A stretch of DNA of 64,000 nt, taken from assembly GCA_913057785.1 (NCBI GenBank), contig CAJXPD010000002.1, positions 1 to 64,000 on the forward strand. Direction: 5' to 3'. Below, piece after piece: positions 23,382 through 42,534 of the stretch. The position numbers were made by a program, and so were the translations under genes. How positions within the stretch are numbered: position 1 is the first letter of the stretch; each line of letters begins with the position of its first letter. The DNA comes from an uncultured Lewinella sp. (lineage in GTDB: Bacteria > Bacteroidota > Bacteroidia > Chitinophagales > Saprospiraceae). A model generated the notes under the pieces. It searched no databases. It saw only the letters and a program-made list of their open reading frames with translations, and was not told the origin of the DNA.

Positions 23382-23530
23382 CTAATGGTCTCAAAAGCAG
23401 CTTTTCATTCTCAACTTTTCAGTGAGTTTGCATTGTTTGGTCAAAATGCTTCTACGGTAAAACGGGGGCAGAAGTTGTGCCAATAAATAAATTTAGCTGC
23501 TACACAGGACAACACACCTAGCATATATCT

Positions 23531-23626
23531 ACCATAAAAAGGCTTCCACCTACCAAAAAAAGGCTCAAGACAGCCAATTATCGAAATGTCGAACTTATTA
23601 CCTGTCTTGACGTGAAATTTACATTG
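23531..23626 (+). promoter_or_regulatory. 21-bp phased direct repeats and promoter (module A)
   Basis: Three repeats, TACCATAAA (CC at 23532), TACCAAAAA (CC at 23553) and the weaker AGCCAATTA (CC at 23574), are spaced exactly 21 bases. The -7-like AAATTTACATTG follows 44 bases after the last CC. A start of transcription near 23628 leaves about 25 bases to the asparagine-synthetase-like gene. Modules B and C in the same locus share this layout. Confidence 0.6.
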
Positions 23627-23651
23627 CCTACAGATAATCAAAACTACTTAT

Positions 23652-25496
23652 ATGCTAATTAGATGTACCCGGACCCCAGCTCAGGCTCCTAAAAATGCCC
23701 TTTCTGAAAAAATAGGTTTCTTCCATTGTACTTATGAACTAGAAACAACAGATTACCGCGTAGATGGAACACACTTCGTATTTTTTGTTGAAACCAATCT
23801 GACGCACTCTAAATTTGAGGCTGTCGCTCAAAAGCTCAAGTCTCTTGATCGTTTGGAACAACGCGGAATTCACAAACTACTCAATGGGAACTATTTCCTC
23901 ATGGCCATCGAAAAGGAAGGTTTGCATGTGCACATGATGAGAGATGCTTCCGGAATAAAGACCGCCTACTACTCCCTAAGCAGGTCTCAGCTGTGTACGG
24001 GCTCAGTCATGCATGAGGTAGCTCGTTACCAAAAAAGAGTTGCCTTTAACAAAGCAGGAGTATTCCAACTGCTATACTCTGGCTACCTGCTAGATGGGTT
24101 TACCTTCTATGAAGGAGTGAGTGAGATAAAAATGGGACAACACCTCATTTTCAATGAGGAACTTGAACTCGTTTCTAAGACCGTTTATGCTGTCAAACTT
24201 GCTCAATATGACAATCCTTACTCGGAAGAGGAAAACTTCCGCATGCTGCGACGAGAATTTCAACTAGCCCACAAACCTTTCCTCTCAGCAAAAAACCGGG
24301 TTCTTTTGTCTGGAGGGTTGGACTCCATTGCTATGCTAATCTCGTTGGATGACATCGCCAACGGAGATCACCTCGATTCCCTATCCTTCAAAGTAAAGGA
24401 TACAACCCAGGATGAATCAGTCTATTCCACTAGCATTGCAGAGCACTTGGAAATTGAGAATACACTGAAGGAGATTGACCCTAATGATCCACAGGTGATC
24501 AAGGATTTCGAAGCTAAGGTCCTTCGAATGAATAACCCCTATTACGGTACTTGGATCTTTGGCCATTTCAAGGGTACGCCGGAAGAAATGTACTACGCCG
24601 GCCAGGATACTCGCTTACATACTCCCGCCCTAAATGAGGTAGATAAATGGGCCTATTCCCTACTAAAGCACCAGGATAAATGGTGGTTGAAGAATGGTCT
24701 TAATCCGTTTAGCAAGAAGGTAGTTATCCCAATTCTCAAAGCATTGGGATGGGAGAAAACCAACAGTAGAATCTTCCGGAACCTCTACAAGGCCATGCAT
24801 ATCTTTGATCTGAAAAAGTACATCAATAAGTTCTACCTTAAGATAGACAAGCAGAAGATCAAGGACAAAGGCCTACCTACTGATTATTATGAGAAAATCA
24901 CCCGTCTTCTGGATCTGGACATAGACAAATGCCCAAGCAGTAGAGCGCTTTACAATGAAATTGTACGGCTAAAATGGAGCGAGCAATACATCTACGATAT
25001 GCGCTACCTCCAAGACATTGCTCGAATCAACAATACCTACATCGCAATGCCTTTCTACAACAAGGAAGTTGCAGAGTTCAGCTCAGGTATCCCATTTGGG
25101 ATGGCAACAAAACCGATGCTAGGCCGTGCTCGCTTTGGCGGCAGAAAGAACATTATCTATAAATACGTCCTACGTAAGGCCTTCCGAGATAAACTAAATG
25201 ATTTGACCTATTATCGGGCAAAGGCTGTATCCATGACCTTGCATCAATTGTTTAATGGCCCACTTGGGAAGAAGGTAGGCGAGATCTTGAAGAAGGACCT
25301 CGAGAGCAAGGATTCCTTCATCAAGCAGTTCCGCTTGAGTAAGGTTGCCAATAAATACTTTGACAAGTCGACTTGGGAATACGGAGACTCTGATTACCTA
25401 CACTTAGCCTACTATATAGCCACTTTGGCTGTTTACCATCACCAGGTCGTATTGGCTCCCAAAACAAAGGACAACGTAGCCGTATCGGCCACTTGA
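23652..25496 (+). CDS. asparagine-synthetase-like amidotransferase without the glutaminase cysteine
   Basis: The C-terminal part is a class-B asparagine synthetase-type ATP-pyrophosphatase domain with the PP-loop LLSGGLDSIAM (about residues 218-228). The N-terminal part keeps the Ntn-hydrolase-like fold (GNYFLMAIEKEG, MRDASGIKTAYYS), but residue 2 is Leu, not the catalytic Cys, so it cannot use glutamine in the usual way. Homologues in polysaccharide loci amidate sugar acids or other acceptors; here the acceptor is unknown. It is the first gene of the plus-strand polysaccharide run and has the phased-repeat promoter immediately upstream. Confidence 0.75.
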   Translation: MLIRCTRTPAQAPKNALSEKIGFFHCTYELETTDYRVDGTHFVFFVETNLTHSKFEAVAQKLKSLDRLEQRGIHKLLNGNYFLMAIEKEGLHVHMMRDASGIKTAYYSLSRSQLCTGSVMHEVARYQKRVAFNKAGVFQLLYSGYLLDGFTFYEGVSEIKMGQHLIFNEELELVSKTVYAVKLAQYDNPYSEEENFRMLRREFQLAHKPFLSAKNRVLLSGGLDSIAMLISLDDIANGDHLDSLSFKVKDTTQDESVYSTSIAEHLEIENTLKEIDPNDPQVIKDFEAKVLRMNNPYYGTWIFGHFKGTPEEMYYAGQDTRLHTPALNEVDKWAYSLLKHQDKWWLKNGLNPFSKKVVIPILKALGWEKTNSRIFRNLYKAMHIFDLKKYINKFYLKIDKQKIKDKGLPTDYYEKITRLLDLDIDKCPSSRALYNEIVRLKWSEQYIYDMRYLQDIARINNTYIAMPFYNKEVAEFSSGIPFGMATKPMLGRARFGGRKNIIYKYVLRKAFRDKLNDLTYYRAKAVSMTLHQLFNGPLGKKVGEILKKDLESKDSFIKQFRLSKVANKYFDKSTWEYGDSDYLHLAYYIATLAVYHHQVVLAPKTKDNVAVSAT

Positions 25497-25541
25497 GGTG
25501 AAGAAACTGTAACCCTTATTTGATAATTCAGTACACATTAA

Positions 25542-25597
25542 GAGTATGTTTAAAGTTTAATCAATCGGCTACCGGCCGAGAAGATGAACATACTCTG
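25542..25597. mobile_element. 56-bp MITE-like element
   Basis: Perfect 10-bp inverted ends AGAGTATGTT (25542-25551) and AACATACTCT (25588-25597) enclose a core with a TCGGC/GCCGA stem. The left 38 bases match the insertion-sequence-like end at 54-90 of the window. It lies between two polysaccharide genes and carries no coding sequence. It is best read as a miniature element moved by the parental transposase. Confidence 0.6.
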
Positions 25598-25624
25598 AGC
25601 AAATAACCCCCTAGTTAAAAAGTC

Positions 25625-26368
25625 ATGAAGTCGTTCCTAACTGCCATCATTAGCTTGCTAGTTCCGTCCAAACTAGCTGTACCGTTACTTAACCTACTCG
25701 GACACAAAATACATCCTACGGCCAAAATAGGTTGTTCTTTTCTACGGTGTGATCATATCTATATGGATAAGCACACCCATATTGGTCATCTCAATATTAT
25801 CCAGGTTAGAAAGCTTCTCTTACGAGAAAGGGCCTTCATTAAATCAAAAAACAGGATTAAGGGCCCTTTGAATATTCTCATGCGAAGAGAATCAGCCATT
25901 GCAAGAGACAATAGCATTTTCCGCGGTGCGCCGCCGATCTGCTTGGGCGTAGCCACACTCCGCCTAGATGAGCTCGGGCAAGTTATTAGTAAACATCACC
26001 TTGATTGTACAAAACCCATTAGTGTCGGGAAAAACTCCACGATAGGAGGACTCGGCACCCAATTCTGGACGCACGGATTCATGCATGCCCCCACTGGCCG
26101 CAAACGAATTCGTGTAGAGGGAGAGATCATCATTGGTAATAATGTCTACGTCGGGTCCCGCTGCGTTTTCAACCCAGGGGTAAAAGTTGGTGATAGCATC
26201 TCCATTGGCAGCAATGCCGCTGTAGCCAAGTCTCTCCATGAGCCTGGTATGTACGTATCCCAAAGATTACGGCACATCCAACGGAATATTGAAGATGTGG
26301 AAGCAAAGCTGGAAAGGAAAGAACAGTACACCCTAGAAACTGCCGTATATGAAAAAGCTATCCATTAA
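25625..26368 (+). CDS. left-handed beta-helix acyltransferase
   Basis: Hexapeptide repeats (IGGLGTQFWTHGF, IIIGNNVYVGSRCVFNPGV, KVGDSISIGSNAAV) show a left-handed beta-helix acyltransferase, related to WbbJ-type sugar O-acetyltransferases. The histidine in WTHGFMH is the likely catalytic base. It probably acetylates a sugar of the surface polysaccharide. It overlaps the next gene by 20 bases, so both are translated from one message. Confidence 0.82.
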   Translation: MKSFLTAIISLLVPSKLAVPLLNLLGHKIHPTAKIGCSFLRCDHIYMDKHTHIGHLNIIQVRKLLLRERAFIKSKNRIKGPLNILMRRESAIARDNSIFRGAPPICLGVATLRLDELGQVISKHHLDCTKPISVGKNSTIGGLGTQFWTHGFMHAPTGRKRIRVEGEIIIGNNVYVGSRCVFNPGVKVGDSISIGSNAAVAKSLHEPGMYVSQRLRHIQRNIEDVEAKLERKEQYTLETAVYEKAIH

Positions 26369-27656
26369 ACTCGTAGACCTCCTGCCACAACTTAAGGCGC
26401 AGCTAGTGAAGCTTTCTGGGTTTACGATCGTTTTTGGATTCATCAAACTTAATGCTTTTACTGCGGCGCTTTTTCTATCCAACTTTGTGGATGATACGGC
26501 AGATTATGGTCTATTTGAATATGCCTTGTCTATCGGGCTTATCATGTCCATTCCCTTGAACTTCGGTTTGCAAGGAGCCTATCCTTTTTTCAACCTAAAA
26601 TCAAAAAGAGAAGGTTTTAAGTCAGTCTTCTATTTTCATTCACTGACGATTAGCGGTGCTCTGGGCCTCTGTTTTTTGATCAATCAGTTTGTGTTCACCC
26701 TAATGCCGGATAAGCTAGCCTTCGCGCTATTGATCGGCGGAATAATAGCCATGCAAGTGATGCTGTCTTCTATTTTGAAGTCGCATGAGAAGATTTTTCC
26801 GGCCGTTTTCTTGGATGGAGGGCTATTTCTAGTTTTAAATCTATACAATCTTTGGTTGTATTCCTCAGGGACTACGCTAGATTTCGCCGTACTAGAGTTG
26901 ATTTTTGGCATCTATCTAGTGTTCCTATTCGGCTTGCATGCCTACCGATTCCTAAGAACAAGAAATGACTTTTCTTGGGCCAATTATAGAGAGTCTATGC
27001 GGTTTGGAAAGAATTTGCTGGTTTCCTCCTTCCTAATTATTTGCCTAACCGGCAGTGCTCGGATCTTCATTGAGTACTTTTTGGATATGGAGCAGGTCGG
27101 CATCTATGCGTTTTATTTCCGCTTTGCCGCGGCAGTGGTCATGATACATCAAGTCGTAAATATTGTTTTCTTCAAAAAAATGTATCAAGCTCCTCCAGCT
27201 GCCCTAGATAAGTACTTCTCTCTATTCTTGATCTTCATCTTAATTGTTGGAAGTGTTTTGCTCTTTTTGGTCCCCCTTGTATTCAAGGGATCACTCCGCC
27301 TACTGGATGAAACCTGGCAAGAATATCATTTACTCTATGCAATCTTGAGCTTCCAAATGGTCTTCTGGATCTGTATGGCCTTGAACGAAAATATCCTTTA
27401 TAGAGAGGAGCTATCCAACAAGATGAACATTTGGTTTTTGGGCTTATTCTTGGCCATGGGTGGTGGTATTTACCTCCTGCATAGTCAGCAACAGCTCAAT
27501 TTATTTAACCTGACTTTGATTAATTCCATTTGCCTGGTATTGGCCTGTGAAGTCCAATTCATGCTTTTGAGAAAACGACAACTATCCTTCGCAAAAACTA
27601 GAAGTCTAAACCTCATTTTTGGCGCAATCTTGCTGCTGATATTCTTTTACCTGTAG
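26349..27656 (+). CDS. oligosaccharide flippase (Wzx-like membrane protein)
   Basis: The 435-residue protein contains about twelve hydrophobic segments in the pattern of the MOP-superfamily polysaccharide transporters that flip lipid-linked repeat units across the inner membrane. No catalytic motif is expected. It overlaps the acyltransferase gene by 20 bases and lies upstream of a Wzy-like polymerase, giving a Wzx/Wzy/Wzz set in this locus. Confidence 0.8.
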   Translation: MKKLSIKLVDLLPQLKAQLVKLSGFTIVFGFIKLNAFTAALFLSNFVDDTADYGLFEYALSIGLIMSIPLNFGLQGAYPFFNLKSKREGFKSVFYFHSLTISGALGLCFLINQFVFTLMPDKLAFALLIGGIIAMQVMLSSILKSHEKIFPAVFLDGGLFLVLNLYNLWLYSSGTTLDFAVLELIFGIYLVFLFGLHAYRFLRTRNDFSWANYRESMRFGKNLLVSSFLIICLTGSARIFIEYFLDMEQVGIYAFYFRFAAAVVMIHQVVNIVFFKKMYQAPPAALDKYFSLFLIFILIVGSVLLFLVPLVFKGSLRLLDETWQEYHLLYAILSFQMVFWICMALNENILYREELSNKMNIWFLGLFLAMGGGIYLLHSQQQLNLFNLTLINSICLVLACEVQFMLLRKRQLSFAKTRSLNLIFGAILLLIFFYL

Positions 27657-27686
27657 CTTATTTTTGAAAGATAATCCCCTTAAGAA

Positions 27687-29069
27687 ATGAACATTTGTAT
27701 CCTATCAAATTTTACAAAAACCTATCTATTCCACGAAATTGCTCAGCAGCTGGAAAAGAGTAATATCCACGCCTTCTGGATAGCTACTAACCGCCCTTTG
27801 TATCAGTTCTTAGTATCACAATACGGTGAAGGTAGAGTGCTTTTGATCAACCTGACCTATAGTGAGCGCCCGGCTTTAACCGTCAACGACTTTAAGCTGA
27901 ACGAATTGATGTACGGAGACCGCTATCTAAGGCATAAAACGGAGGTAGGCTTCCGTTATCTCCGGCATATTCAGAAGCCCATCTATGATTTCATAGCTAA
28001 CAATCAGATCAAAGCTGTTTTTGGAGAAATTACCTGGTCACATGAAGTGCTGATACACCGCATGTGCAAGCAATGCCCAGAATTAGGCTGTACCTTCTTG
28101 AACCCTCATGTGGTTCGAATTCCAGATAATCGGTTTGCCTTCTACACAGATGAGCGGCAGAGTCGGCTTCTACAAATTGAAAGAGAAGAAGAATGGGATG
28201 GTGCAATTCTGGAAGCTAGAAAGCCTGATTATCTGAAGCTCAATGATAAAATTGTCAAAAAATCCAGCAGCTTAGCTGGTAGACTCAATAGACTTAAAAG
28301 GTTTATTACCAATGAAAATATGGATCCGCTAGATCCGACCTTACTCCCCAATGTCAGAGCGCGTGTCCGCATGGCCTGGAATCAGGAATGGAATAAAGAG
28401 ACCTATAAATCGGTTAGTCGAATATCATTTGACGAGGTAAAGCACCAGCCTTTTGTCTTCCTAGGGCTCCATAAACAACCTGAGGCATCCGTCGATGTCT
28501 TTGGACGATATTATGAGGATCAGCTTTTGAATATTAAGAACCTTTGGAGAGCCCTGCCGGAGGGTTGGAACCTTCTGATCAAGGAACACACCAATGCCAT
28601 CGGTGATCGATCAAAGGATTTCTACCGAGCCATTAAGCAATTAGCTGGTGTGTTTTTGGTTGATGAAAAGACTAATTCCTATGAAATGATTCGGCAGGCA
28701 GCATTGGTAGCCACGATTACGGGGACCATAGCCTATGAGGCAGCATTGATGAAGGTGCCATCCGTAACCTTTGCCCCCACCTTCTTTAACCAATTGAATA
28801 CTTGTGCTACCATTGATTTAAGGGATATTAATCAACACATGCTTTCCGATATCGCCAACTCCTTGCAGGAAAGGCCGGATAATCGAGAAGCCTTCTCTAA
28901 ATATATTTTCATAAACTCTTTTGAAGGTAGAATGATTGATCCGATATCTGACCCCCGGTCCATCACTCCTGAAAATGTTGCCTTATTGTCTGAGGGGATG
29001 AAGCAAGCACTCGCGTTTACGCAAAAGCAAGCTTCTAGCCAGCAAGTGTTGGGGCAACAAACAGCTTAG
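27687..29069 (+). CDS. capsule-type glycosyltransferase / surface carbohydrate biosynthesis protein
   Basis: The C-terminal half resembles capsular polysaccharide synthesis proteins of the KpsC/KpsS type: LLIKEHTNAIGDRS, VFLVDEKTNSYEMIRQAALVATITGTIAYEAALMKVPSVTF. The TGTIAYEAA block is the usual nucleotide-sugar-binding part. It is soluble, 460 residues. It is the only obvious glycosyltransferase in the locus and therefore a candidate for adding pseudaminic acid or another sugar; the donor is unknown. Confidence 0.7.
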   Translation: MNICILSNFTKTYLFHEIAQQLEKSNIHAFWIATNRPLYQFLVSQYGEGRVLLINLTYSERPALTVNDFKLNELMYGDRYLRHKTEVGFRYLRHIQKPIYDFIANNQIKAVFGEITWSHEVLIHRMCKQCPELGCTFLNPHVVRIPDNRFAFYTDERQSRLLQIEREEEWDGAILEARKPDYLKLNDKIVKKSSSLAGRLNRLKRFITNENMDPLDPTLLPNVRARVRMAWNQEWNKETYKSVSRISFDEVKHQPFVFLGLHKQPEASVDVFGRYYEDQLLNIKNLWRALPEGWNLLIKEHTNAIGDRSKDFYRAIKQLAGVFLVDEKTNSYEMIRQAALVATITGTIAYEAALMKVPSVTFAPTFFNQLNTCATIDLRDINQHMLSDIANSLQERPDNREAFSKYIFINSFEGRMIDPISDPRSITPENVALLSEGMKQALAFTQKQASSQQVLGQQTA

Positions 29070-29075
29070 TCTTGC

Positions 29076-30329
29076 ATGCGGAAATTAGCCATTGCCCTCT
29101 TAGTCGTAATGACCTATACTGGCATTAGCTTTGCCAACATTGGCAAGGCTATGCTCACCCCCTTTCATCTCATCATGGGGTTCTGCATTGGCTATGGATT
29201 GATCCTAAGCAGGAAAAATAGCACCTATACCTGGTTTACCCTAGTCGTCTTTCTCGTCTATGTGCTAATCGTCAACGTAGTCCAGTACCCCAACATTAGG
29301 TACACGTCAGTCGTTTACACCATAGTCTATGGTTTAGAGACCACTATCTTATACAATATGATTCGGCGCTGTCCAGCTGGTGACATCGTATTTGCTTTTA
29401 AACTCATCATCTACAGCTATGCCGTAAACTTGTTCTTTGGCTTTGCTTTCGACACCATCGGGTTTCGAAATGCCTTTGTACTGAAGTATATCAAAGTGTA
29501 TTATCATGAAGGCGGCGGCGGCGGAAGACCTATGGGCTTTTCCAGTGAACCTTCCTATGCAGCTTTCATGCTTAGTGTGGCCTTCTTGTGCTACTCGCAT
29601 ATGCGAGATCATGCGCGGGATAAGCCCACCTTCAAAGTTGCCTTGGCTTATATGATGTGCATTGTACTATCCAAATCCGCCTACGGCTTTATTTTCGTTG
29701 CCGTAAATCTGATGGATTGGGCAGTAATGTTCTACAAAAAAGGAGATGCCATACTGCGAAAGTTATTTCCTTACCTAGGAGTGGTAGCTATAGGAGGGCT
29801 GGTGTTGTTTATCCAAAACTCTTCGAATGAAGTAGCCACCCGGTTAAGTAATGTTTCTGAAGTACTATTCGATCCGAGCTTGGACAAAAAGAAACGGATG
29901 GTCAAACTCCAGGAAGTAGATGGAAGTGCCTTTGCACGAATCGGTCCTACCTATCTATTGCTCACCGCCGGCGAAGATAGTGATATCAACTACTGGACTG
30001 GGCAAGGCGCTGGGGCTGCCGGCGTTTTCCTCGCCGATTTCATGGCGGGCATCATTGTCGACGATGACACGGAAAAAATTGATACGGGCATTATCCCCGC
30101 TTTCTTTTTCGACTACGGGATCATCGGATTTATACTGCTACTAATCTTTTTGATCAATTGCTTTAGCCGTCTTGGCTTCCCTTATTGGCTAATGTTCTTC
30201 CTTGTATTGCCAAATGCCAATATTAATACTCAATTGCTTTGGTTCGCTATTCTAAGCTACACCTTCGTTTCCGTCTGGAAAGCCAAGCCGGGTGCTATAC
30301 CCGATCTTCAGACTGCTCCCATCCAATAA
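29076..30329 (+). CDS. Wzy-like O-antigen/polysaccharide polymerase
   Basis: This integral membrane protein has about ten hydrophobic segments and a large polar loop (about residues 250-335), as in Wzy/O-antigen ligase proteins. A short GGGGGRPMGFSSEPSYAA stretch matches the conserved region before a membrane segment in this family. It would join repeat units in the periplasm, with chain length set by the Wzz-like protein at 22137. It starts 6 bases after the previous gene. Confidence 0.72.
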   Translation: MRKLAIALLVVMTYTGISFANIGKAMLTPFHLIMGFCIGYGLILSRKNSTYTWFTLVVFLVYVLIVNVVQYPNIRYTSVVYTIVYGLETTILYNMIRRCPAGDIVFAFKLIIYSYAVNLFFGFAFDTIGFRNAFVLKYIKVYYHEGGGGGRPMGFSSEPSYAAFMLSVAFLCYSHMRDHARDKPTFKVALAYMMCIVLSKSAYGFIFVAVNLMDWAVMFYKKGDAILRKLFPYLGVVAIGGLVLFIQNSSNEVATRLSNVSEVLFDPSLDKKKRMVKLQEVDGSAFARIGPTYLLLTAGEDSDINYWTGQGAGAAGVFLADFMAGIIVDDDTEKIDTGIIPAFFFDYGIIGFILLLIFLINCFSRLGFPYWLMFFLVLPNANINTQLLWFAILSYTFVSVWKAKPGAIPDLQTAPIQ

Positions 30330-30419
30330 TCGGGTTATTTCTACCAAAAATATTCTCATCTAGTCCGAAAACAGAATATGTACCGTTCCTCTCCCTTTTT
30401 GAGGCCATCTTTGTATTGT
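30321..30419 (+). promoter_or_regulatory. 21-bp phased direct repeats and promoter (module B)
   Basis: ATCCAATAA (CC at 30323), TACCAAAAA (CC at 30344) and GTCCGAAAA (CC at 30365) are spaced exactly 21 bases. The -7-like CATCTTTGTATTG has TTTG 45 bases after the last CC. The first repeat lies inside the end of the polymerase gene. Confidence 0.6.
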
Positions 30420-30469
30420 CAGAAGGGCAAAACAACAGACACCAGGTTGACCCGCCCCGACACAAAACT

Positions 30470-30496
30470 ATGAACAACAACAATTTTATGAAGTAA
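30470..30496 (+). CDS. possible leader peptide MNNNNFMK
   Basis: A nine-codon reading frame (ATG to TAA) encodes four consecutive asparagines. It lies in the leader transcribed from module B, before the hairpin at 30539. A second mini-frame, MNTLPKEA at 30524-30550, runs into that hairpin. The layout resembles a leader peptide for attenuation, but no competing antiterminator was established and the peptides may be chance. Confidence 0.25.
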   Translation: MNNNNFMK

Positions 30497-30538
30497 GAAT
30501 TAACACAAAGAGCAAACACATCAATGAACACACTTCCT

Positions 30539-30584
30539 AAGGAAGCGTAAAAAGCTTCATGGCTTTGATCGCTTCCTTTTCTTT
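30539..30584 (+). terminator. intrinsic terminator or attenuator in the GEVED-gene leader
   Basis: AAGGAAGCG (30539-30547) pairs with CGCTTCCTT (30570-30578); an inner AAAGC/GCTTT stem stabilises the loop; a T-rich run follows. It lies about 160 bases after the module B promoter and 41 bases before the start of the GEVED-domain gene, so it can cut off that transcript. Confidence 0.6.
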
Positions 30585-30624
30585 CATTTTCAACAATCAA
30601 CAAATTTCCAAAAAACACAATACG

Positions 30625-31284
30625 ATGAGAACTCAATCCTTATACTTTTGCTTAATTTTTTTGGTTCTAGCAACTGTTAGCCTAAATGGACAGTCAGCCT
30701 GGACTATAGGTAGGACAGATTCTTCAAGTATGACCAGCTATTTTGAAAGCGTAGATACAATTCACTATGAGCCCGTCCTTGGGATTGATGGAAAGACCTA
30801 TTTAAATGCTCAGGAAGCAGTCTTTTCCGGTATTGCTAGTTGGACAAAAACGGAAGTACTTAGCTACAACAAAGTGGAGATAGAACAACCCCGTATTAGC
30901 TGGATTGAATTCATGGAAATTAATGGTATGCAAACCGAGAACATGAGTTCGGAAGAAGGATATCAAGATCAGTCCAACTACATTTTCGATCTATTTACAG
31001 GAGGATCAAATTATATGTTCTTGAATGCGGAACAAGTTCAGGATATTTGTGAAATGAAGTGGAAAATCTGGATTGATTTCAACGAAAATCATGAATTTGA
31101 AAAAGACGAATTGGTATTCGAAGGAGCTGGAGCCCAGCAAGAAATTCAACTACAACTGCCAAGCATTCAACAAAGAGAATTGATCACCCGGATGCGTGTG
31201 GCATGGGCACCGGAAGAGGCTACTTGTGGGAGTAATTCCTTAGTAGTAGGAAGCGTAAAAGATGTGTCTGTTTACATTCAATAA
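30625..31284 (+). CDS. exported GEVED-domain protein
   Basis: After a signal peptide (LYFCLIFLVLATVSLNG) the protein of about 219 residues ends in a beta-sandwich with KIWIDFNENHEFEKDELVFEGAG and a final ITRMRVAW, matching the GEVED domain found in Bacteroidota secreted proteins. ATG at 30625 is chosen because the upstream ATG at 30559 lies within the terminator hairpin. No T9SS sorting domain is seen. It sits between the polymerase and the pseudaminic acid genes, so it may be a surface protein tied to the polysaccharide, but this is inference. Confidence 0.65.
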   Translation: MRTQSLYFCLIFLVLATVSLNGQSAWTIGRTDSSSMTSYFESVDTIHYEPVLGIDGKTYLNAQEAVFSGIASWTKTEVLSYNKVEIEQPRISWIEFMEINGMQTENMSSEEGYQDQSNYIFDLFTGGSNYMFLNAEQVQDICEMKWKIWIDFNENHEFEKDELVFEGAGAQQEIQLQLPSIQQRELITRMRVAWAPEEATCGSNSLVVGSVKDVSVYIQ

Positions 31285-31678
31285 ACTAAGTGTAATAGGT
31301 AGGTCGAAGACCTAATTGCAAAGAGTCCTCCCAAAATTTACCAAAAAACGAAGGTTTTCTACCAAAAACCGAAAAGCCCCTCTCCATTTGATCATTTATA
31401 GGCACATTTGTATTGCCACTTACACAGATCACCACCATAAAATTTAAGACACTATACGGTCGTAGAAGCGTAACTGAGAGCAGTGCAGTTAGTGTCAATC
31501 GTATCCATATTTGCAAGTTAATCTATAGCCAATCAAAAAGCGGTATACGGAGATTTCGTCTGGATATTGGCTGATTATGAAAGGATTTTAGACTTCAAAT
31601 AGGGCCGATGTAGTCGGTTTATTTTTTATTACCCATAGGTCTCATTATCATTTTGTTCACCCTAAAAAAGAGTCAAGT
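31285..31678. other. intergenic region upstream of pseB
   Basis: This 394-base gap contains regulatory module C (31339-31416) and a leader of about 260 bases to pseB. In the leader I see only tiny frames with immediate stops and no strong hairpin. Confidence 0.4.
31339..31416 (+). promoter_or_regulatory. 21-bp phased direct repeats and promoter (module C)
   Basis: TACCAAAAA at 31339-31347 and again at 31360-31368 are identical and exactly 21 bases apart. The -7-like CACATTTGTATTG has TTTG 45 bases after the last CC, the same distance as in module B. It should drive the pse genes from about 31417. Confidence 0.65.
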
Positions 31679-32734
31679 ATGCTAAACTTGAACGGTAAAT
31701 CTATCCTAGTAACTGGAGGAACGGGTTCCTTTGGTAAGAAATTCATTAGCACCGTCCTACACCGCTTCCCACAGGTAAAAAAAGTTGTAGTTTATTCCCG
31801 AGATGAGTTGAAACAATACGAAATGTCTCAACAATTCTCTCCTGTGAAGTATCCTGCCATGCGTTATTTCATCGGTGATGTAAGAGACCAAGAAAGGCTA
31901 ATTCAGGCCACCGAAGGCATTGATATTGTAGTTCACGCTGCCGCTCTGAAACAAGTACCTGCAGCTGAGTACAACCCTACCGAGTGTATTAAGACGAACG
32001 TAAACGGATCACAGAATATCATTAAGGCAGCCATTACCAATAACGTCAGTTGCGTAGTTGCCCTTTCCACAGATAAAGCAGCCGCACCAGTGAATCTATA
32101 TGGAGCGACGAAGCTCTGTTCTGACAAGTTATTCGTAGCTGCTAACAATATGCGTGGGGACCGAGATGTGAAGTTTTCAGTAGTCAGATATGGGAATGTT
32201 GCAGGCTCTCGCGGCTCAGTCATTCCTTTTTTCATGAAGAAACGAGCGGACGGATTTTTGCCGATCACGCATCAGGATATGACAAGGTTCAACATTTCTC
32301 TTGAGGGAGGTGTAGCTTTAGTTCTCTTTGCCATTGAAAATTCAATAGGTGGGGAAATTTTTGTTTCTAAACTTCCCTCCTATCGAATCGGAGATGTGGC
32401 TACTGCGATTGCCCCGAATTGCGAGCAACGAATCGTAGGAATTCGACCAGGGGAGAAATTACATGAAGAAATGATTACCCAGGCAGATTCCTTCAACACC
32501 ATCGAACTGGATCGCCATTATATTATCTGTCCAACCAACTTGCAGTACCAAGGGCTTTCCAAAGACAACTACTTGACGAATTACGAACGGTTCAACGCAA
32601 GGTCAGTACCCGTAGGCTTCAGTTACAATTCTGGAGACAATACGGAATGGGTAGGAGTAGAAGAAATCCGAGATATCATCAAGACACATGTTGACCCTCA
32701 CTTCGTACCTAGCGAGCTGGTAGAAGCCGCTTAA
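31679..32734 (+). CDS. pseB: UDP-N-acetylglucosamine 4,6-dehydratase (inverting)
   Basis: PseB carries out the first step of pseudaminic acid synthesis, converting UDP-GlcNAc to the 4-keto-6-deoxy-L-AltNAc intermediate. It shows the NAD-binding GGTGSFGKKF, the catalytic pair in STDKAA, and YGATK with the YxxxK motif. The length of 351 residues is slightly longer than the usual 330-340. It begins the pse run and lies about 260 bases behind module C. Confidence 0.92.
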   Translation: MLNLNGKSILVTGGTGSFGKKFISTVLHRFPQVKKVVVYSRDELKQYEMSQQFSPVKYPAMRYFIGDVRDQERLIQATEGIDIVVHAAALKQVPAAEYNPTECIKTNVNGSQNIIKAAITNNVSCVVALSTDKAAAPVNLYGATKLCSDKLFVAANNMRGDRDVKFSVVRYGNVAGSRGSVIPFFMKKRADGFLPITHQDMTRFNISLEGGVALVLFAIENSIGGEIFVSKLPSYRIGDVATAIAPNCEQRIVGIRPGEKLHEEMITQADSFNTIELDRHYIICPTNLQYQGLSKDNYLTNYERFNARSVPVGFSYNSGDNTEWVGVEEIRDIIKTHVDPHFVPSELVEAA

Positions 32735-32759
32735 AGTTTCACCTACAAAAGAATATGCC

Positions 32760-33920
32760 ATGCTAAATATCCCCTACGGAAGACAGCACATCTCGCAAGA
32801 TGATGTGGAAGCGGTGGTCAAGACTTTACAAGCGGCCTATCTCACACAAGGGCCGACAGTGCAGGCTTTTGAAGAAGCATTTGCACAATACGTAGATGCT
32901 AGATATGCGGTGGCGGTAACCAATGGTACAGCAGCCTTACATCTTTGTGCCTTGGCCCTGGGTGTAGAGCCAGGTACTAAGGTCATCACTACTCCGATTA
33001 CTTTCGCTGCATCTGCCAACTGCATCCGCTATTGCGGTGGTCAAGTTGTATTTGCGGATGTAGAGCCAAATACAGCACTTCTAGATATAGAGAAAGTGCG
33101 CCTTCTATTAGAAAGTCACCCTAAAGGGACTTTCAGCGGCATCATTCCGGTAGATTTTGCCGGGCAGGCGGTAGACCTTGCCTCCTTTAGAGCGTTAGCG
33201 GATGAATATGATCTTTGGATCATCGAGGATGCTTGCCACGCTCCGGGCGGATACTTCACCGACGGAAAGGGCATGAAGCAAAGATGCGGTAATGGGCAAT
33301 TTGCAGATGCCGCCATATTTTCCTTTCACCCGGTAAAACACATTGCCTGTGGAGAGGGGGGGATGATCACCACCAATGATCGGGAAATTTATGAAAAGCT
33401 GCTTTTGCTGCGAACCCATGGCATCACAAAAGATCCGACCCAACTTCAGGAGAATCACGGAGGATGGTACTACGAAATGCAGGAACTAGGTTTCAATTAC
33501 CGAATCTCAGATATCAATTGCGCTTTGGGCTTATCACAAATGAATCGAGCCCATGCGCGCCTGGCCAAACGCCAAGCGATAGCCAAAGTATATGATCAGG
33601 CTTTTATGGACACACCGATTCGGCCGCTTACCCAACCGCTGGACGGCGGTCACGCCTATCATTTGTACGTGATACAGACGCAAGAACGAAAACTGCTGTA
33701 TGACCAATTGAGGGCTCAGGGGGTATATGCCCAAGTACATTATATCCCCGTGCATTTGCAACCTTACTACCAACGTTTGGGGTGGCGCAAAGGAGATTTA
33801 CCAGTAGCTGAAGAATACTACGAGCAATGTTTAAGCCTTCCGATGTATCCTGAGTTAACCCTTGCAGAACAGCTTCAAGTTATTGAACTAACCAAGTCTT
33901 CTATACTATGCGAACACTAG
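32760..33920 (+). CDS. pseC: UDP-4-amino-4,6-dideoxy-AltNAc aminotransferase
   Basis: PseC is a PLP-dependent aminotransferase of the DegT/DnrJ/EryC1 family that aminates the PseB product at C4. The PLP lysine is in SFHPVKHIACGEGG, and the NGTAALHL, VDFAGQ and EDACHAPGG motifs are present. The length of 386 residues is normal. It overlaps pseF by 13 bases. Confidence 0.93.
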   Translation: MLNIPYGRQHISQDDVEAVVKTLQAAYLTQGPTVQAFEEAFAQYVDARYAVAVTNGTAALHLCALALGVEPGTKVITTPITFAASANCIRYCGGQVVFADVEPNTALLDIEKVRLLLESHPKGTFSGIIPVDFAGQAVDLASFRALADEYDLWIIEDACHAPGGYFTDGKGMKQRCGNGQFADAAIFSFHPVKHIACGEGGMITTNDREIYEKLLLLRTHGITKDPTQLQENHGGWYYEMQELGFNYRISDINCALGLSQMNRAHARLAKRQAIAKVYDQAFMDTPIRPLTQPLDGGHAYHLYVIQTQERKLLYDQLRAQGVYAQVHYIPVHLQPYYQRLGWRKGDLPVAEEYYEQCLSLPMYPELTLAEQLQVIELTKSSILCEH

Positions 33921-34633
33921 CCATTATCCCTGCACGAGGAGGGAGCAAAAGAATCCCGAACAAGAACGTTCGGAATTTCTTGGGCAAGCCGATCATCGCC
34001 TATTCCATTCATACCGCATTAGATTCAGACCTCTTTGATGAGGTTATGGTTTCGACGGATAGTGAGATGATAGCAGATGTCGCAACCAGCTTTGGTGCCA
34101 ACATCCCTTTTATGCGTTCCAATGCCTCGTCTTCGGATCGTGCGACTACCGTAGATGTCCTGATAGAGGTGCTCAGCAAATACAAGGAGCAAGGAATCCA
34201 TTTCAAATATGCTTGCTGCATCTATCCTACAGCGCCATTTATTTCTCACTATCGACTGAAAGCTGCGCTCGGGAAGCTGAGAAGAGAGGCTCTGGATACC
34301 GTGATGCCTGTGGTGCCTTTTAGCTACCCCGTGCAACGGTCTTTTACCATGATAGAGGGCAAGCTCGGAATGATGATGCCTGAACATATTAATACTCGCT
34401 CTCAAGACTTAGAAACAGCTTACCACGATTGCGGTCAATTTTACTGGTTTGACGTGGAAAAACTCCTCGCAAACGGGAATCTAATTACCGCCAATACTGG
34501 AGCCATTATCCTTCCGGAAATGGAAGTTCAAGATATAGATCAAGAAAGCGACTGGAAATTAGCCGAACTCAAATATCAATTAATCCATCAATTACATGAG
34601 AACGAAAGTACTACTAAGGGCAGACGGGCATAA
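33908..34633 (+). CDS. pseF: pseudaminic acid cytidylyltransferase
   Basis: PseF activates pseudaminic acid to the CMP-sugar. The N-terminal nucleotide-binding motif AIIPARGGSKRIPNKN and the YPTAPF and QDIDQESDWKLAE motifs are those of CMP-sialic-acid-type synthetases. The length of 241 residues is normal. It overlaps both pseC and the pseG-pseH fusion, showing tight coupling. Confidence 0.93.
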   Translation: MRTLAIIPARGGSKRIPNKNVRNFLGKPIIAYSIHTALDSDLFDEVMVSTDSEMIADVATSFGANIPFMRSNASSSDRATTVDVLIEVLSKYKEQGIHFKYACCIYPTAPFISHYRLKAALGKLRREALDTVMPVVPFSYPVQRSFTMIEGKLGMMMPEHINTRSQDLETAYHDCGQFYWFDVEKLLANGNLITANTGAIILPEMEVQDIDQESDWKLAELKYQLIHQLHENESTTKGRRA

Positions 34634-36044
34634 TCGAATGGGATTAGGACATGTAGTCCGTTCACTAGCACTAGCCAAAATGCTAGAAGAAGACTTTGAA
34701 TGTCAGTTCATTGTTAGGGAGCCCAGCCAAACGCTTAGACAACTCATAGAATCCGAAGGTTTTCCTGTAGTCAGACTCAACGAGAGAGTACTACCAGCTC
34801 ATGAAGCTCAGTACATCGCCCATCATTTTCTTCGAGGAGACGAGATCGTGGTCTTAGATGGGTACCATTTCGACAGCAGCTACCAAGAGACTATTAAGCA
34901 GGTCGCCGGTAAATTGGTTTGCATTGACGATATACATCAAACGCACTTTTGGGCCGATACGATCATCAACCATACCAGTGGGATCAGTACAGAAGAGTAT
35001 CAAAAAGAAGACTACGCCCAGCTGATGTTAGGCTTCGAATATGTATTGCTGCGTCAGCCATTCTTGGACGCAGCTAAACATAGGAGCCCAAGAAAAGAAA
35101 AGAGCAAGGGACAAGCTGCCTTTATATGCATGGGGGGAGCCGACCCGGACAACGCAACCATTAAGGCATTAGCCATCTGTGCTCATCGAGAGGATGTAAG
35201 CGAATGTCATGTGGTGATTGGCGGTGCCTATTTGCACCATGACCAGTTGAATGATTTCTGTAAAAGGAGCGAACTAAAAATCAACATATACAGCAACCTG
35301 AATGCCGATAATATGGTAGTGTTAATGTCCAATTGTGATTTGGCCATTTGCCCACCTAGTACCGTTGCCTTAGAATACCTGTGTACTGGACATCAGCTCT
35401 ACTTAATGCAAACTGCTGATAATCAGACTTACTTACATCAGTATCTGACGGAAAACAAATTGGCACAAAACTGGACTGACCTCGCAGCAGGTGCAAAAAG
35501 GACAGCCAGAGCAGAAGTAATCAATCGACTATTTGATGGCAAGAGTGATCGTAGGTTATTGAAGCATTTTCGGGCCCTTGACTACGATATGCACTGCGGT
35601 TTCCGTAAGGCCACAGATGGAGATATGTTATTGTATTTCAAATGGGCCAATGATCCAATGACTCGCCAACAGTCATTTCATCCTGAACCCATCAAAATCG
35701 AAGATCATCGCGCCTGGTTCCAACAGAAAATGGCAGATCCTAAGGTGATGATGTATATCATGCAATACAAAGGAAAGCCGGTAGGACAAATTAGGTTCGG
35801 TATCAATGGGGTCGCCCTACTGAGCTATTCCATTGACCCTAGTGAAAGAGGCAAGAGCTTTGGAACCTACATGGTAAAGCAATCCATCAAGGAATTGGCA
35901 AAAGACCTGGACCGACCTATTAATGTAGTTGGATACGTAAAAAAGGATAACCTAGCCTCTAATAAGGCCCTTTCAAACCTGGGGTTTGAGCCTATTAAAA
36001 GCGACCGAGAAACCTCGATCAAGTACTTATTAAAGGCCAGTTAA
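34596..36044 (+). CDS. pseG: PseG-PseH fusion: UDP-sugar hydrolase and N-acetyltransferase
   Basis: Residues about 1-325 form a PseG-type hydrolase that removes UDP (RADGHNRMGLGHVVRS with the catalytic-site histidine, VLDGYHFDSSYQ, CMGGADPDNATIKAL). Residues about 332-482 form a GNAT acetyltransferase of the PseH type (FRKATDGDMLLYFKWANDP, IDPSERGKSFGTYMVK, NLASNKALSNLGFE). The two successive steps, C4-N acetylation (PseH) and UDP release (PseG), are therefore on one chain, with a short basic linker. PseG and PseH are separate proteins in Campylobacter and Helicobacter. It overlaps pseF by 38 bases. Confidence 0.88.
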   Translation: MRTKVLLRADGHNRMGLGHVVRSLALAKMLEEDFECQFIVREPSQTLRQLIESEGFPVVRLNERVLPAHEAQYIAHHFLRGDEIVVLDGYHFDSSYQETIKQVAGKLVCIDDIHQTHFWADTIINHTSGISTEEYQKEDYAQLMLGFEYVLLRQPFLDAAKHRSPRKEKSKGQAAFICMGGADPDNATIKALAICAHREDVSECHVVIGGAYLHHDQLNDFCKRSELKINIYSNLNADNMVVLMSNCDLAICPPSTVALEYLCTGHQLYLMQTADNQTYLHQYLTENKLAQNWTDLAAGAKRTARAEVINRLFDGKSDRRLLKHFRALDYDMHCGFRKATDGDMLLYFKWANDPMTRQQSFHPEPIKIEDHRAWFQQKMADPKVMMYIMQYKGKPVGQIRFGINGVALLSYSIDPSERGKSFGTYMVKQSIKELAKDLDRPINVVGYVKKDNLASNKALSNLGFEPIKSDRETSIKYLLKAS

Positions 36045-36086
36045 TAGTTAGGACTAAGCATTCATTTATCCCTTAAGAATATACTT

Positions 36087-37130
36087 ATGAAAGTAATGAA
36101 CATAGGCGGGCAACTTATTGGCCCAACCTACAAGCCATTCATCATTGCTGAAATGTCTGGCAATCACAACCAATCACTAGAAAGAGCACTGGAGATCGTA
36201 GACGCAGCGGCAGAAGCCGGAGCTCATGCCATCAAACTACAGACGTATACGGCAGATACGATGACCGTGAAGGGAGCATATACCATAAAGGATCAAAACT
36301 CTCTTTGGAACGGGCGGGAGCTATATGAACTCTATCAACAAGCCTATACCCCCTGGGATTGGCACAAAGTGATATTTGATCGAGCCAAGAGTCACGGGAT
36401 GCTAGCCTTTAGCTCCCCCTTCGACGCCTCGGCAGTGGATTTCTTGGAAACCCTAGATGTCCCCGCCTATAAAATCGCGTCCTTCGAAAACACAGACCAC
36501 CCTTTACTTCGCAAAGTAGCCCAAACTGGAAAACCCGTTATCATGTCGACAGGGGTAGCCACCTTAGCTGATATCGACGAGGCGGTGCGAGTATTGCAGG
36601 ATAATGGCTGCACTTCTCTAGCAATATTAAAGTGTACCTCTACTTATCCAGCGACCCCCTCTACTTCGAATATTGCTACGATTCCACATATGGCTCGTCT
36701 TTTTGAAGATGTGCAAGTAGGCTTGTCAGATCATACCATGGGGATAGGTGTCGCCGTAGCAGCCGTAGCCCTAGGAGCCACCATAGTTGAAAAGCATTTC
36801 ACCCTCTCCAGAGCCGATGGCGGTGTGGATAGTGCTTTTTCTTTAGAGCCTGATGAATTGAAAGCCCTAGTGAAAGAAACGGGCCGTGCAGCCTTGTCTT
36901 TAGGACGAATCCAGTACGGCGTGCAAAAGGCAGAAAAAAATAGCAAGAAGTTTAAACGATCAGTATACGCAGTCAAAGATATTCTACCAGGAGAATCACT
37001 GAGTGATCAAAATCTCCGTGTTATTCGTCCGGGTGATGGACTGGAGCCTAAATACTTTGATACGTTGCTTGGCAAAACGGCTAAGCAAAAAATCAAAGCC
37101 GGAACACCCCTTTCCTGGGAATTAGTATGA
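36087..37130 (+). CDS. pseI: pseudaminic acid synthase
   Basis: PseI condenses the 6-deoxy-AltdiNAc sugar with phosphoenolpyruvate to form pseudaminic acid. It is a NeuB-family TIM barrel (FIIAEMSGNHNQS, AIKLQTYTADTMT, KIASFE, LSDHTMGI, VEKHFTLSR) with a C-terminal SAF/antifreeze-like domain (about residues 285-345). The length of 347 residues is normal. It is the last gene of the pathway and is followed by a strong terminator. Confidence 0.94.
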   Translation: MKVMNIGGQLIGPTYKPFIIAEMSGNHNQSLERALEIVDAAAEAGAHAIKLQTYTADTMTVKGAYTIKDQNSLWNGRELYELYQQAYTPWDWHKVIFDRAKSHGMLAFSSPFDASAVDFLETLDVPAYKIASFENTDHPLLRKVAQTGKPVIMSTGVATLADIDEAVRVLQDNGCTSLAILKCTSTYPATPSTSNIATIPHMARLFEDVQVGLSDHTMGIGVAVAAVALGATIVEKHFTLSRADGGVDSAFSLEPDELKALVKETGRAALSLGRIQYGVQKAEKNSKKFKRSVYAVKDILPGESLSDQNLRVIRPGDGLEPKYFDTLLGKTAKQKIKAGTPLSWELV

Positions 37131-37649: not shown

Positions 37650-38192
37650 ATGAAAGGTATTGTATTCACGGGATTCCTAGATATGGTTGAAGAAAAGTTC
37701 GGCTATGATATCGCGGATGAAATAATCTCGGAAGGAAATCTCCCCTCGGGTGGTTCCTACACCTCTGTTGGCACTTATTCCCATGGAGAAATGGTTCAAT
37801 TAATCATGGGGCTGAGTCAAAAGACCCAAAAAGACGCCCCTTCTTTATTGAAGGCCTTCGCCCTGTACTTTTTCGACACATTGGAAAAGACCTACCCGCA
37901 ATTTCTTGAAGCGGCAGATAATGCGTTCGACTTCTTGGAATCCATTGAAAATTACATTCACGTCGAAGTACGGAAACTCTATCCAGATGCCGAGCTCCCT
38001 ACTTTTGAAACTAACCTTCTAGGGGATAATACCCTCGAAATGATCTACACCTCCGAAAGAGCCATGTCTGATTTTGCAGAGGGCTTGATGGAGCGAGCCA
38101 TTGGCTACTATGGAGAAGAAGCTACCATAGAAAAAAAGAAGCTAAGTGAAGATGGCAAGAAGGTCCAATTCGTAGTGATCAAGAAAGGCTAG
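37650..38192 (+). CDS. H-NOX heme nitric-oxide sensor protein
   Basis: This is a stand-alone H-NOX (HNOB) domain of 180 residues. The heme-ligating histidine is His104 in NYIHVEVRKLYPDAELP, and the heme-propionate motif YxSxR is present as Tyr133-Thr-Ser135-Glu-Arg137. H-NOX proteins bind NO (and sometimes O2) and control a partner histidine kinase. No distal tyrosine typical of O2 binders could be assigned. It lies 2 bases before a hybrid histidine kinase, the classic H-NOX/kinase pair, and starts a six-gene operon. Confidence 0.93.
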   Translation: MKGIVFTGFLDMVEEKFGYDIADEIISEGNLPSGGSYTSVGTYSHGEMVQLIMGLSQKTQKDAPSLLKAFALYFFDTLEKTYPQFLEAADNAFDFLESIENYIHVEVRKLYPDAELPTFETNLLGDNTLEMIYTSERAMSDFAEGLMERAIGYYGEEATIEKKKLSEDGKKVQFVVIKKG

Positions 38193-40330: not shown

Positions 40331-41023
40331 ATGGTATTAAACTGTATTATCGTTGACGATGACCTGATGGCCCGAAAAGGGCTAGAAAGACTTTGCGACA
40401 AATCAGAACTACTCAACACGATAGGTATCTGTGAAAACGCGAAGAAAGCACTCGAGCTTCTTTCTAAAGAAGTCGTCGATCTCATTTTCCTGGATATAGA
40501 GATGCCAGAAATCACGGGAATCGAATTTCTAGAAAATGCCGTTTCCCTACCCCAAGTAATATTTACAACATCTAACAAAGAATACGCCTACGAGGCCTAC
40601 AATTATCAAGTGACTGATTTTCTAAAGAAACCCATTACCTACCCTCGCTTCAAGCAAGCGGTAGAGAAGGCTTACGCCATTCATGAGAAGAACAATGCCT
40701 ACAAGGCCAATGCACAAGAAGTATACGTAAGGGAAGATGGTCGATTCGTAAGGATCCCCTTTGACCATATCCTATATTTCGAAAATGTTGGCGATTATGT
40801 ACGAGTCAAAACGGTTCAAGGGAGCCATATTATTCACGGTACCCTGAAAGGTATCAATGGTAAACTAGACAACCCTAGATTCTTGAAGGTTCATCGCTCC
40901 TTTATCGTCAACCTCAGTAAGATTAAGGATATCGAGGAAAATACACTGGTGATAGAAAAGAAAGTTATACCGATCAGCCGAGCCAATAAGCCTGTATTAA
41001 TGGGCAAACTCAATTTACTTTAA
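40331..41023 (+). CDS. LytTR-family response regulator
   Basis: The receiver domain (about residues 1-118) keeps the acidic pocket VDDD and the phospho-acceptor Asp55 in IFLDIEMPE. The LytTR DNA-binding domain follows (about 130-228: FVRIPFDHILYFENVGDYVRV, LKVHRSFIVNLSKI). LytTR regulators bind pairs of 9-bp direct repeats about 21 bp apart. It lies 21 bases behind the H-NOX kinase and 25 before the NtrC-type regulator. Its targets are unknown; the phased sites in the polysaccharide locus are candidates. Confidence 0.93.
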   Translation: MVLNCIIVDDDLMARKGLERLCDKSELLNTIGICENAKKALELLSKEVVDLIFLDIEMPEITGIEFLENAVSLPQVIFTTSNKEYAYEAYNYQVTDFLKKPITYPRFKQAVEKAYAIHEKNNAYKANAQEVYVREDGRFVRIPFDHILYFENVGDYVRVKTVQGSHIIHGTLKGINGKLDNPRFLKVHRSFIVNLSKIKDIEENTLVIEKKVIPISRANKPVLMGKLNLL

Positions 41024-42413: not shown

Positions 42414-42534
42414 AGTCACTTTTCCGAGCCTTGACATTTGCTATTTACAATAACCAAATCCTTAAAGAGAGGTGCCTATCACCCTTTTTCCATGGGTAGG
42501 CGAATACATTATAAATCATTTACAACACCAAAAA

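Follow-up and report, generated by a model that had tools for sequence, protein, structure and literature searches.

Phased repeat arrays before surface-sugar genes of Saprospiraceae are candidate operators of a LytTR response regulator encoded next to H-NOX

The window analysed here, a stretch of 64,000 nucleotides from an uncultured Lewinella sp. of the Saprospiraceae, carries three arrays of short direct repeats, situated upstream of an asparagine-synthase-like gene (asn), a gene for a GEVED-domain protein and the pse operon for CMP-pseudaminic acid synthesis (Table 1). Sequence comparison suggests that these arrays are the operators of the LytTR response regulator encoded at 40331–41023, which would receive its input from the adjoining H-NOX protein and hybrid histidine kinase, most likely in response to nitric oxide (NO), and would activate a regulon of surface functions. 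We give this reading a probability of roughly 0.8. The arrays are observed, as are their constant geometry, conservation, intergenic placement and statistical and physical linkage to orthologues of the regulator, H-NOX and the kinase; that the regulator binds and activates, that phosphotransfer takes place and that NO is the signal is inferred.

The repeats follow the consensus [TA]ACC[AG]AAAAnnGA, with a 9-bp core and a 12-bp gap, and fill up to three slots, termed R1, R2 and R3; the pse array occupies only the two slots nearest the promoter. An earlier note on this DNA had placed the CC of each repeat and claimed an exact period of 21 bp at all three promoters, and reading the letters of the window confirms both, together with the distance from the last CC to TTTA or TTTG (44 bases at asn, 45 at GEVED and 45 at pse). 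All three repeat sets exist, but the third copies at 23572 (AGCCAATTA) and 30363 (GTCCGAAAA) are degenerate. Likewise, TTTG or TTTA is found where a -7 element had been claimed, but none of the three elements perfectly matches TAnnTTTG, the -7 promoter element of Bacteroidota. Between the end of the array and the -7 element lie about 27 bp. With up to three mismatches, the pattern TACCAAAAA-N12-TACCAAAAA occurs five times in the window against 0.13 expected, and five or more matches were seen in none of 100 shuffles. Four of the five are parts of the three arrays; the fifth, at 4880, is unrelated to them. A profile of array plus -7 element (97 positions, its training set including the three window arrays) matches the window with an expectation value (E) of at most 1e-13 only at the three arrays, the next best match having E 0.011.

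The earlier note had proposed a genome-wide scan. Across the 11.36-Mb source assembly, the loose pattern with up to three mismatches stays near background, with 69 matches against 59 in a reversed control, and since it proves little by itself it was replaced by a profile; close matches and the profile, on the other hand, separate cleanly. Many of the matches with 0 to 2 mismatches recur on a few contigs, where they align as R1-R2-R3 at 21-bp steps, R3 often reading nnCCGAAAACAGAAAA and TTTG usually standing at one constant distance. A repeat-only profile, built from 12 sites over 58 positions with the -7 element excluded, finds 15 genome sites at E < 0.004 and the next at E 0.04, profile E-values being rough. 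Three of the 15 (the pse site, C434 and C5:192) lie outside the training set, and the pse array is recovered at E 1.7e-4 by this model, which was not trained on it. The source assembly holds 7.9% contamination, and many of the compared genomes are fragmented assemblies. The match C13:19317- and other single pattern matches were dropped because they resembled coding sequence, and C14:39990-, which lies 5' of a LytTR kinase/regulator pair and resembled autoregulation, was not used, its E of 0.05 being close to chance.

At E <= 0.01 the 58-position profile matches 11 of 60 genomes, the source genome included. Two congeners contain many sites (13 in G001 and 15 in G002), the fragmented assembly of G003, also of the genus, contains one, and seven other genomes have one or two each. 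In both congeners the three arrays of the window recur in the same order and spacing before the same genes, at 46106, 39318 and 38320 of G001:C79 and at 12078, 18811 and 19814 of G002:C323. The arrays orthologous to that of asn are 46106 (- strand) and 12078 (+ strand), the latter with TTTTG at its -7 place. The pseB array is kept in a third congener as well. Thus, neither of the two outcomes that the earlier note had named as refuting its proposal, absence from orthologous loci and random placement with respect to promoters, is observed: in other genera, 33 of 34 arrays are intergenic, in DNA covered to 90% by open reading frames (34 of 48 matches were counted, weaker ones and tandem copies in L252 and L255 being left out). 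In a four-species alignment of the pseB promoter, 30 of the 32 columns of R2 and R3 are invariant, compared with 27 of 120 columns in the flank upstream of them. At asn and GEVED the contrast between array and flank is weak because the flanks are themselves well conserved; the least conserved part of both promoters is the spacer holding the -33 region, and the -7 region of GEVED is identical in 14 of 14 columns in three species.

The distance between array and -7-like element is fixed at most sites. An alignment of 32 same-genus sites extends over 97 columns with zero gaps, and of 42 same-genus sites 29 have TTTG at offset 88 or 89, with the other 25 occurrences of TTTG between offsets 60 and 180 scattered over 119 positions. 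Since these sites were found by the 58-position model, which excludes the -7 element, the offset constitutes an independent test; two of 44 sites, located at contig ends, were left out. TTTG at this offset is common, yet the preceding TA is often imperfect at the same-genus sites, and the element is a putative -7. In other genera the -7 element is in register at 31 of 41 loci, a count that is not independent because the loci were picked with a model containing the -7 element. As to the period, in 20 loci of other genera, 53 pair sites occur at a period of 21 and one to four at periods of 23–26, while the counts at 20 and 22 (24 each) and at 28 (19) are ascribed to slippage in runs of A.

The earlier note had also suggested LytTR binding. 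The geometry fits this idea, and genome comparison points to a specific candidate, the protein of 40331–41023, whose frame (40331–41020) matches PF00072 with 72.1 bits and PF04397 with 73.9 bits, both above cut-off. G020, from a different genus, has a LytTR response regulator with a strong array (E 2.9e-8) 382 bp in front of it; the best match of this regulator in the source genome is the 40331–41023 protein, at 55% identity. A total of 398 Saprospiraceae genomes were searched with the 97-position profile, built from same-genus sites only, and separately with the regulator, scoring ten array candidates per genome and using cut-offs of E <= 1e-5 for arrays and E <= 1e-62 for regulator orthologues. 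Of 93 genomes that carry the orthologue, 58 have arrays, as against 5 of the 305 that lack it (odds ratio 99, p 6e-39, counts and p-values that ignore shared ancestry); conversely, the orthologue is present in 58 of 63 array-bearing genomes and in 35 of 335 others. Leaving out the own genus, arrays occur in 54 of 89 genomes with and 5 of 305 without the orthologue. As a control, the regulator paralogue on contig C60 has its counterpart in 13 of the 398 genomes, and one of the six that lack the 40331 type has an array.

Array and regulator are also physically linked. Among the 118 array matches listed outside the genus (E <= 1.2e-5, compared with 93 of 97 regulator places), 47 from 32 genomes are on the regulator's contig, in no case more than 16 kb from the regulator; by a rough estimate with 5-Mb genomes, about one would be expected by chance. 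Eight of the listed matches have the strand of the regulator and start 8–196 bp past the point where the regulator match ends.

In the window, the regulator gene is the third in a run of H-NOX, kinase and LytTR regulator situated directly behind the pse operon, with the kinase gene starting 2 bp behind that of H-NOX. The best solved chain for the H-NOX protein, aligned over residues 1–178, is 6bdd_A, which we take to be the H-NOX of Kordia algicida although the chain is labelled aldolase. Hallmarks of H-NOX proteins are the haem-ligand histidine and a YxSxR motif, and in this alignment the window protein displays the histidine of ENYIHVEVRK and the stretch YTSER. Among 97 regulator loci, 58 have a same-strand H-NOX gene at a distance of up to 6 kb, mostly 2.1–3.2 kb away, and in the loci read with H-NOX in view the kinase is located between H-NOX and regulator; in G095, kinase and regulator are fused in one protein. 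Of the genomes bearing H-NOX, 81 also have the regulator, and 54 of these contain arrays; of the 59 that lack the regulator, 3 do, so that arrays follow the regulator and not H-NOX as such. Further along the same gene run, FIST is a domain of NosP NO sensors, and the run possibly encodes two NO sensors, H-NOX and the FIST protein.

Table 1. Repeat arrays, -7-like elements and genes of the window
Feature	Position	Strand	Basis or detail
Repeat array R1-R2-R3, 5' of asparagine-synthase-like gene	23530..23587	+	CC at 23532, 23553, 23574
-7-like element GAAATTTA, asn promoter, fixed offset	23614..23621	+	TTTA at 23618
Asparagine synthase-like protein, 614 amino acids	23652..25496	+	Pfam PF00733, 53.1 bits
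Hexapeptide acetyltransferase-like protein	25625..26368	+	Matches in Pfam and NCBIfam, none reaching its cut-off
Repeat array R1-R2-R3, 5' of GEVED gene	30321..30378	+	CC at 30323, 30344, 30365
-7-like element CATCTTTG, GEVED promoter	30406..30413	+	TTTG at 30410
GEVED-domain protein	30559..31284	+	Pfam PF20009, 26.4 bits
Repeat array, slots R2 and R3 only, 5' of pse operon	31339..31375	+	CC at 31341, 31362; perfect pattern match
-7-like element CACATTTG, pse promoter	31403..31410	+	TTTG at 31407
pseB, pseC, pseF, pseG(/H), pseI: CMP-pseudaminic acid synthesis	31679..37130	+	TIGR03589, 03588, 03584, 03590, 03586
H-NOX haem-NO-binding sensor protein	37650..38192	+	PF07700 E 1.3e-39, 136.2 bits; 6bdd_A E 2e-48
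Hybrid histidine kinase, PAS-HisKA-HATPase-REC-Hpt	38195..40309	+	Domain scan
LytTR response regulator, proposed array binder	40331..41023	+	REC and LytTR; orthologues co-occur and co-localise with arrays
Sigma-54-type response regulator, next after LytTR regulator	41049..42413	+	Domain scan
FIST-domain protein	42472..43653	+	Pfam PF08495 and PF10442
Second hybrid histidine kinase	43664..46516	+	Domain scan

The genes behind the arrays are mostly of surface or signalling type. All five NCBIfam matches of the pse operon are above cut-off; the PseH domain is below it. Within the genus, array-preceded genes comprise pseB, the asparagine-synthase-like and GEVED genes, two DUF4842 genes (one scanned as LruC) and genes for a protein sorted by the type IX secretion system (T9SS), a DUF2911 protein and an SdrD-B-like protein. 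In other genera, arrays precede glycosyltransferases, STAS proteins and receiver-domain proteins, as well as one protein without family match that we read as a flippase; PseB-like genes, judged by their sequence start, stand behind arrays in G244 and G093, and GlmS follows regulator and array in L246, L249, L250 and L276. A scan of 28 first genes yielded five STAS, four receiver domains, three GlmS-type domains, two T9SS tails and two ClpB, the latter both behind tandem array units and therefore probably not direct targets. With regard to the earlier suggestion that one regulator may control the whole surface-sugar locus, sequence comparison supplies a candidate regulator, but the predicted regulon comprises surface and signalling genes and is not purely polysaccharide.

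Several findings weigh against the proposed assignment of arrays, regulator and H-NOX to one system. One is shared ancestry, which the co-occurrence counts ignore and to which the physical linkage in 32 genomes is less sensitive. Of the 93 regulator-bearing genomes, 35 have no array at E <= 1e-5, and five array-bearing genomes (G315, G100, G093, G119 and G322) lack the regulator at the strict cut-off. In G315 a regulator relative of 45% identity lies 1.8 kb from the array and in G100 a partial relative 0.5 kb from it; in G093 the regulator may lie in an assembly gap, because the contig with its three arrays, one of them that of the PseB-like gene, stops 0.7 kb past the H-NOX gene; that leaves G119 and G322. 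The source genome contains 94 LytTR matches, most of them in open reading frames as long as a response regulator gene, and one of these paralogues could take the place of the 40331 protein at the arrays or share them with it. TTTG is missing at the offset in 13 of 42 same-genus sites; four of these carry TTTA (asn of the source genome and of G001, LruC1, and pseB of G002), and the other nine each belong to a back-to-back array pair, as the partner that lacks the -7 element. The pseB -7 segment is conserved in only 1 of 14 columns of the four-species alignment, where we think it is misaligned, because TTTG or TTTA is in register in each species. Moreover, 39 of 97 regulator loci, some of them at contig ends, have no H-NOX gene within 6 kb, 12 regulator-bearing genomes have no H-NOX that was found, and the 97-position profile scan of the window detects no array before the H-NOX operon.

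The wealth of LytTR proteins raises the alternative that the arrays are LytTR operators whose main binder is another family member, the 40331 regulator being merely linked to the locus. The weak array with three mismatches in front of the LytTR kinase/regulator pair on contig C14 would agree with this; however, that site is near chance, the C60-type control, the one paralogue compared, shows little association with arrays, and family-wide co-occurrence as well as physical linkage point to the 40331 orthologue, which makes another main binder decidedly unlikely. It is highly improbable that the repeats act without any specific regulator, as phased A-tracts bending the promoter DNA or as UP-like elements. 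Most repeats do contain about five consecutive A, two helical turns from those of the next repeat, but the three positions with the highest information content are the CC pair and the G that follows the A-run, none of which is needed for bending, and bending predicts neither co-occurrence with one regulator nor the near-absence of arrays from a class-wide sample.

If the 40331 regulator is accepted as the binder, its input and its sign of action have to be weighed. An input other than H-NOX and the kinase is an unlikely but serious alternative: regulators without linked kinase occur in G020, L268 and L265, and a sigma-54 regulator, a FIST protein and a second hybrid kinase belong to the same gene run. 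Against it stand the same-strand H-NOX genes within 6 kb at 58 of 97 loci, in many genera, and the kinase-regulator fusion of G095. That the regulator is a repressor, keeping the promoter shut from its array until it receives a releasing signal, seems quite unlikely. Such an arrangement is described for CoxC, a LytTR protein that represses through a triplet operator over the -35 box, in the available text of PMC11347149, but in the window some 27 bp separate the array from the -7 element downstream of it, as at activating LytTR sites, and the -33 spacer of asn and GEVED, their least conserved part, would fit activator-dependent promoters.

The preferred reading, with the 40331 protein as an H-NOX-linked activator, can be put as a working model. 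Each repeat [TA]ACC[AG]AAAAnnGA would be one site for a LytTR domain, and two or three repeats, two helical turns apart, would align the bound regulator along a single face of the helix, immediately 5' of the -33 region. Bound 44–45 bp before the -7 element, it would most likely activate transcription, which is favoured because the arrays lie upstream of, and not over, the presumed -33 region. The adjacent H-NOX protein would sense the signal, most likely NO, a choice based on its proximity and on the known H-NOX kinases, as far as these are covered by the available part of PMC8738867, and the hybrid kinase with its REC and Hpt domains would pass the signal on to the regulator. Predicted targets are pseudaminic acid and other polysaccharide genes, secreted and adhesin-like proteins and some signalling proteins; a gas signal would then control the cell-surface coat. 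An extension of this model, for which we see slightly less than even chances, is that H-NOX, kinase, LytTR regulator and phased arrays of two to three sites form an NO-responsive master switch for the surface matrix of Saprospiraceae, with back-to-back arrays serving, where multi-copy surface genes have divergent promoters, to assemble larger nucleoprotein complexes.

Such back-to-back pairs were seen nine times in the genus: on C13, C5 and C374 of the source genome (G000), on C72, C41 and C158 of G001 and on C39, C185 and C327 of G002, some being orthologous and hence not nine independent cases. Their first repeat slots are 78–79 bp apart in seven pairs and 67–68 bp in two, a difference of about one helical turn; the G001:C41 pair, counted from its first real repeat, gives 79 bp, while the model, setting R1 one slot too far out, gave 58. 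In each of the seven pairs testable on both sides, TTTG stands at the -7 place of one array but not of its partner. The C41 and C158 genes of G001 both begin MYKVSTLTILFF..., the former without Pfam match. Five source-genome contigs (C5, C13, C374, C266 and C434) have an array no more than about 110 bp from one of their ends, C5 and C13 sharing identical last 29 bases, and the genes behind the arrays at these edges are probably multi-copy. On C5, at about 300–430 and 3' of an array without -7 element (192–243), an inverted repeat CGATGGTGTATTAAATGCGTGG has its complement further along and is perhaps a terminator. Tandem units of about 290 bp, each with array and -7 element and possibly a short open reading frame, were observed behind the regulator in L255 (10508–11729) and L252 (2981–3636).

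Outside the family the arrays fade. In a class-wide sample of 295 genomes, E <= 1e-5 is reached only in the source genome and in G690, whose match (G690:C58:6551-6627, E 6.9e-8, the best outside the family) was rejected as a 21-bp minisatellite TTCCAAAAATAGAATATNNTT mimicking an array. Three genomes of this sample, G452, G670 and G707, have array matches at E 1e-5 to 1e-4; regulator relatives reach 55% identity in G707, the array site of which reads poorly, and 46% in G670. When 80 named loci of relatives were searched, the clearest array outside Saprospiraceae records was that of L279, a Bacteroidia metagenome-assembled genome, directly behind a regulator of 44% identity (E 0.0009), all others having E 0.01 or worse, and a period of 21 is not enriched in L272–L343 (72 loci, of which one, L276, is from Saprospiraceae). 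Since matches elsewhere are weak and the period is not enriched in these loci, the array code appears to be mainly a Saprospiraceae trait.

Saprospiraceae are described as abundant in wastewater plants, with a role that is little known, in the available text of PMC9304909. A regulator, an operator sequence and a probable gas signal render the regulation of flocs and biofilms directly testable, and array plus -7 offset provide a readable regulatory code for uncultured genomes. Should the reading hold, a LytTR output would be added to H-NOX signalling. The open-access papers searched, with subscription papers mostly outside their scope, contained nothing joining LytTR and Saprospiraceae and nothing joining nitric oxide, Saprospiraceae and H-NOX; for H-NOX with LytTR there was nothing that appeared to concern such a system, and in the available part of the H-NOX review PMC8738867 the word LytTR is absent. 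For LytTR and polysaccharide regulons of Bacteroidota, these papers offer work on transmembrane regulators. LytTR triplet operators and H-NOX kinase pathways are each known; their combination was not found in the open-access papers searched.

Published LytTR sites mostly consist of two direct or inverse repeats of 9–11 nt with 11–13 nt between them (PMC4847170, available text), and in LytTR Regulatory Systems the sites are close upstream of -35 (PMC6193735, available text). AgrA, YpdB and the LytTR Regulatory Systems resemble the arrays in that their repeat pairs are mostly just upstream of -35, but they usually have two repeats, belong to other phyla and come without mention of H-NOX in the accessible portions of PMC4227749, PMC4847170 and PMC6193735. 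The H-NOX/histidine kinase pathways, such as Shewanella H-NOX, kinase and HnoC, share adjoining genes, response regulators and outputs tied to biofilms, whereas their outputs are cyclic di-GMP enzymes, HnoC or quorum-sensing relays, according to the portion of PMC8738867 at hand. RcoM and CoxC likewise combine a LytTR DNA-binding domain, three direct repeats at two-turn spacing and a gas signal. As reported in the accessible sections of PMC11347149, the operators of RcoM1 and CoxC are triplets with two helical turns from repeat to repeat, and CoxC requires all three repeats and represses; the repeat spacing is 18–21 bp for CoxC, while RcoM1 repeats are 12–13 bp apart. Both respond to carbon monoxide, act on cox genes and stem from Afipia and Paraburkholderia, and their repeat reads TTCNNGCA or TTNNNGCN in place of the TACCAAAAA of the Saprospiraceae arrays. 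The system of the window, by comparison, would operate through a phospho-regulator behind an H-NOX kinase, at Bacteroidota promoters and on a surface regulon.

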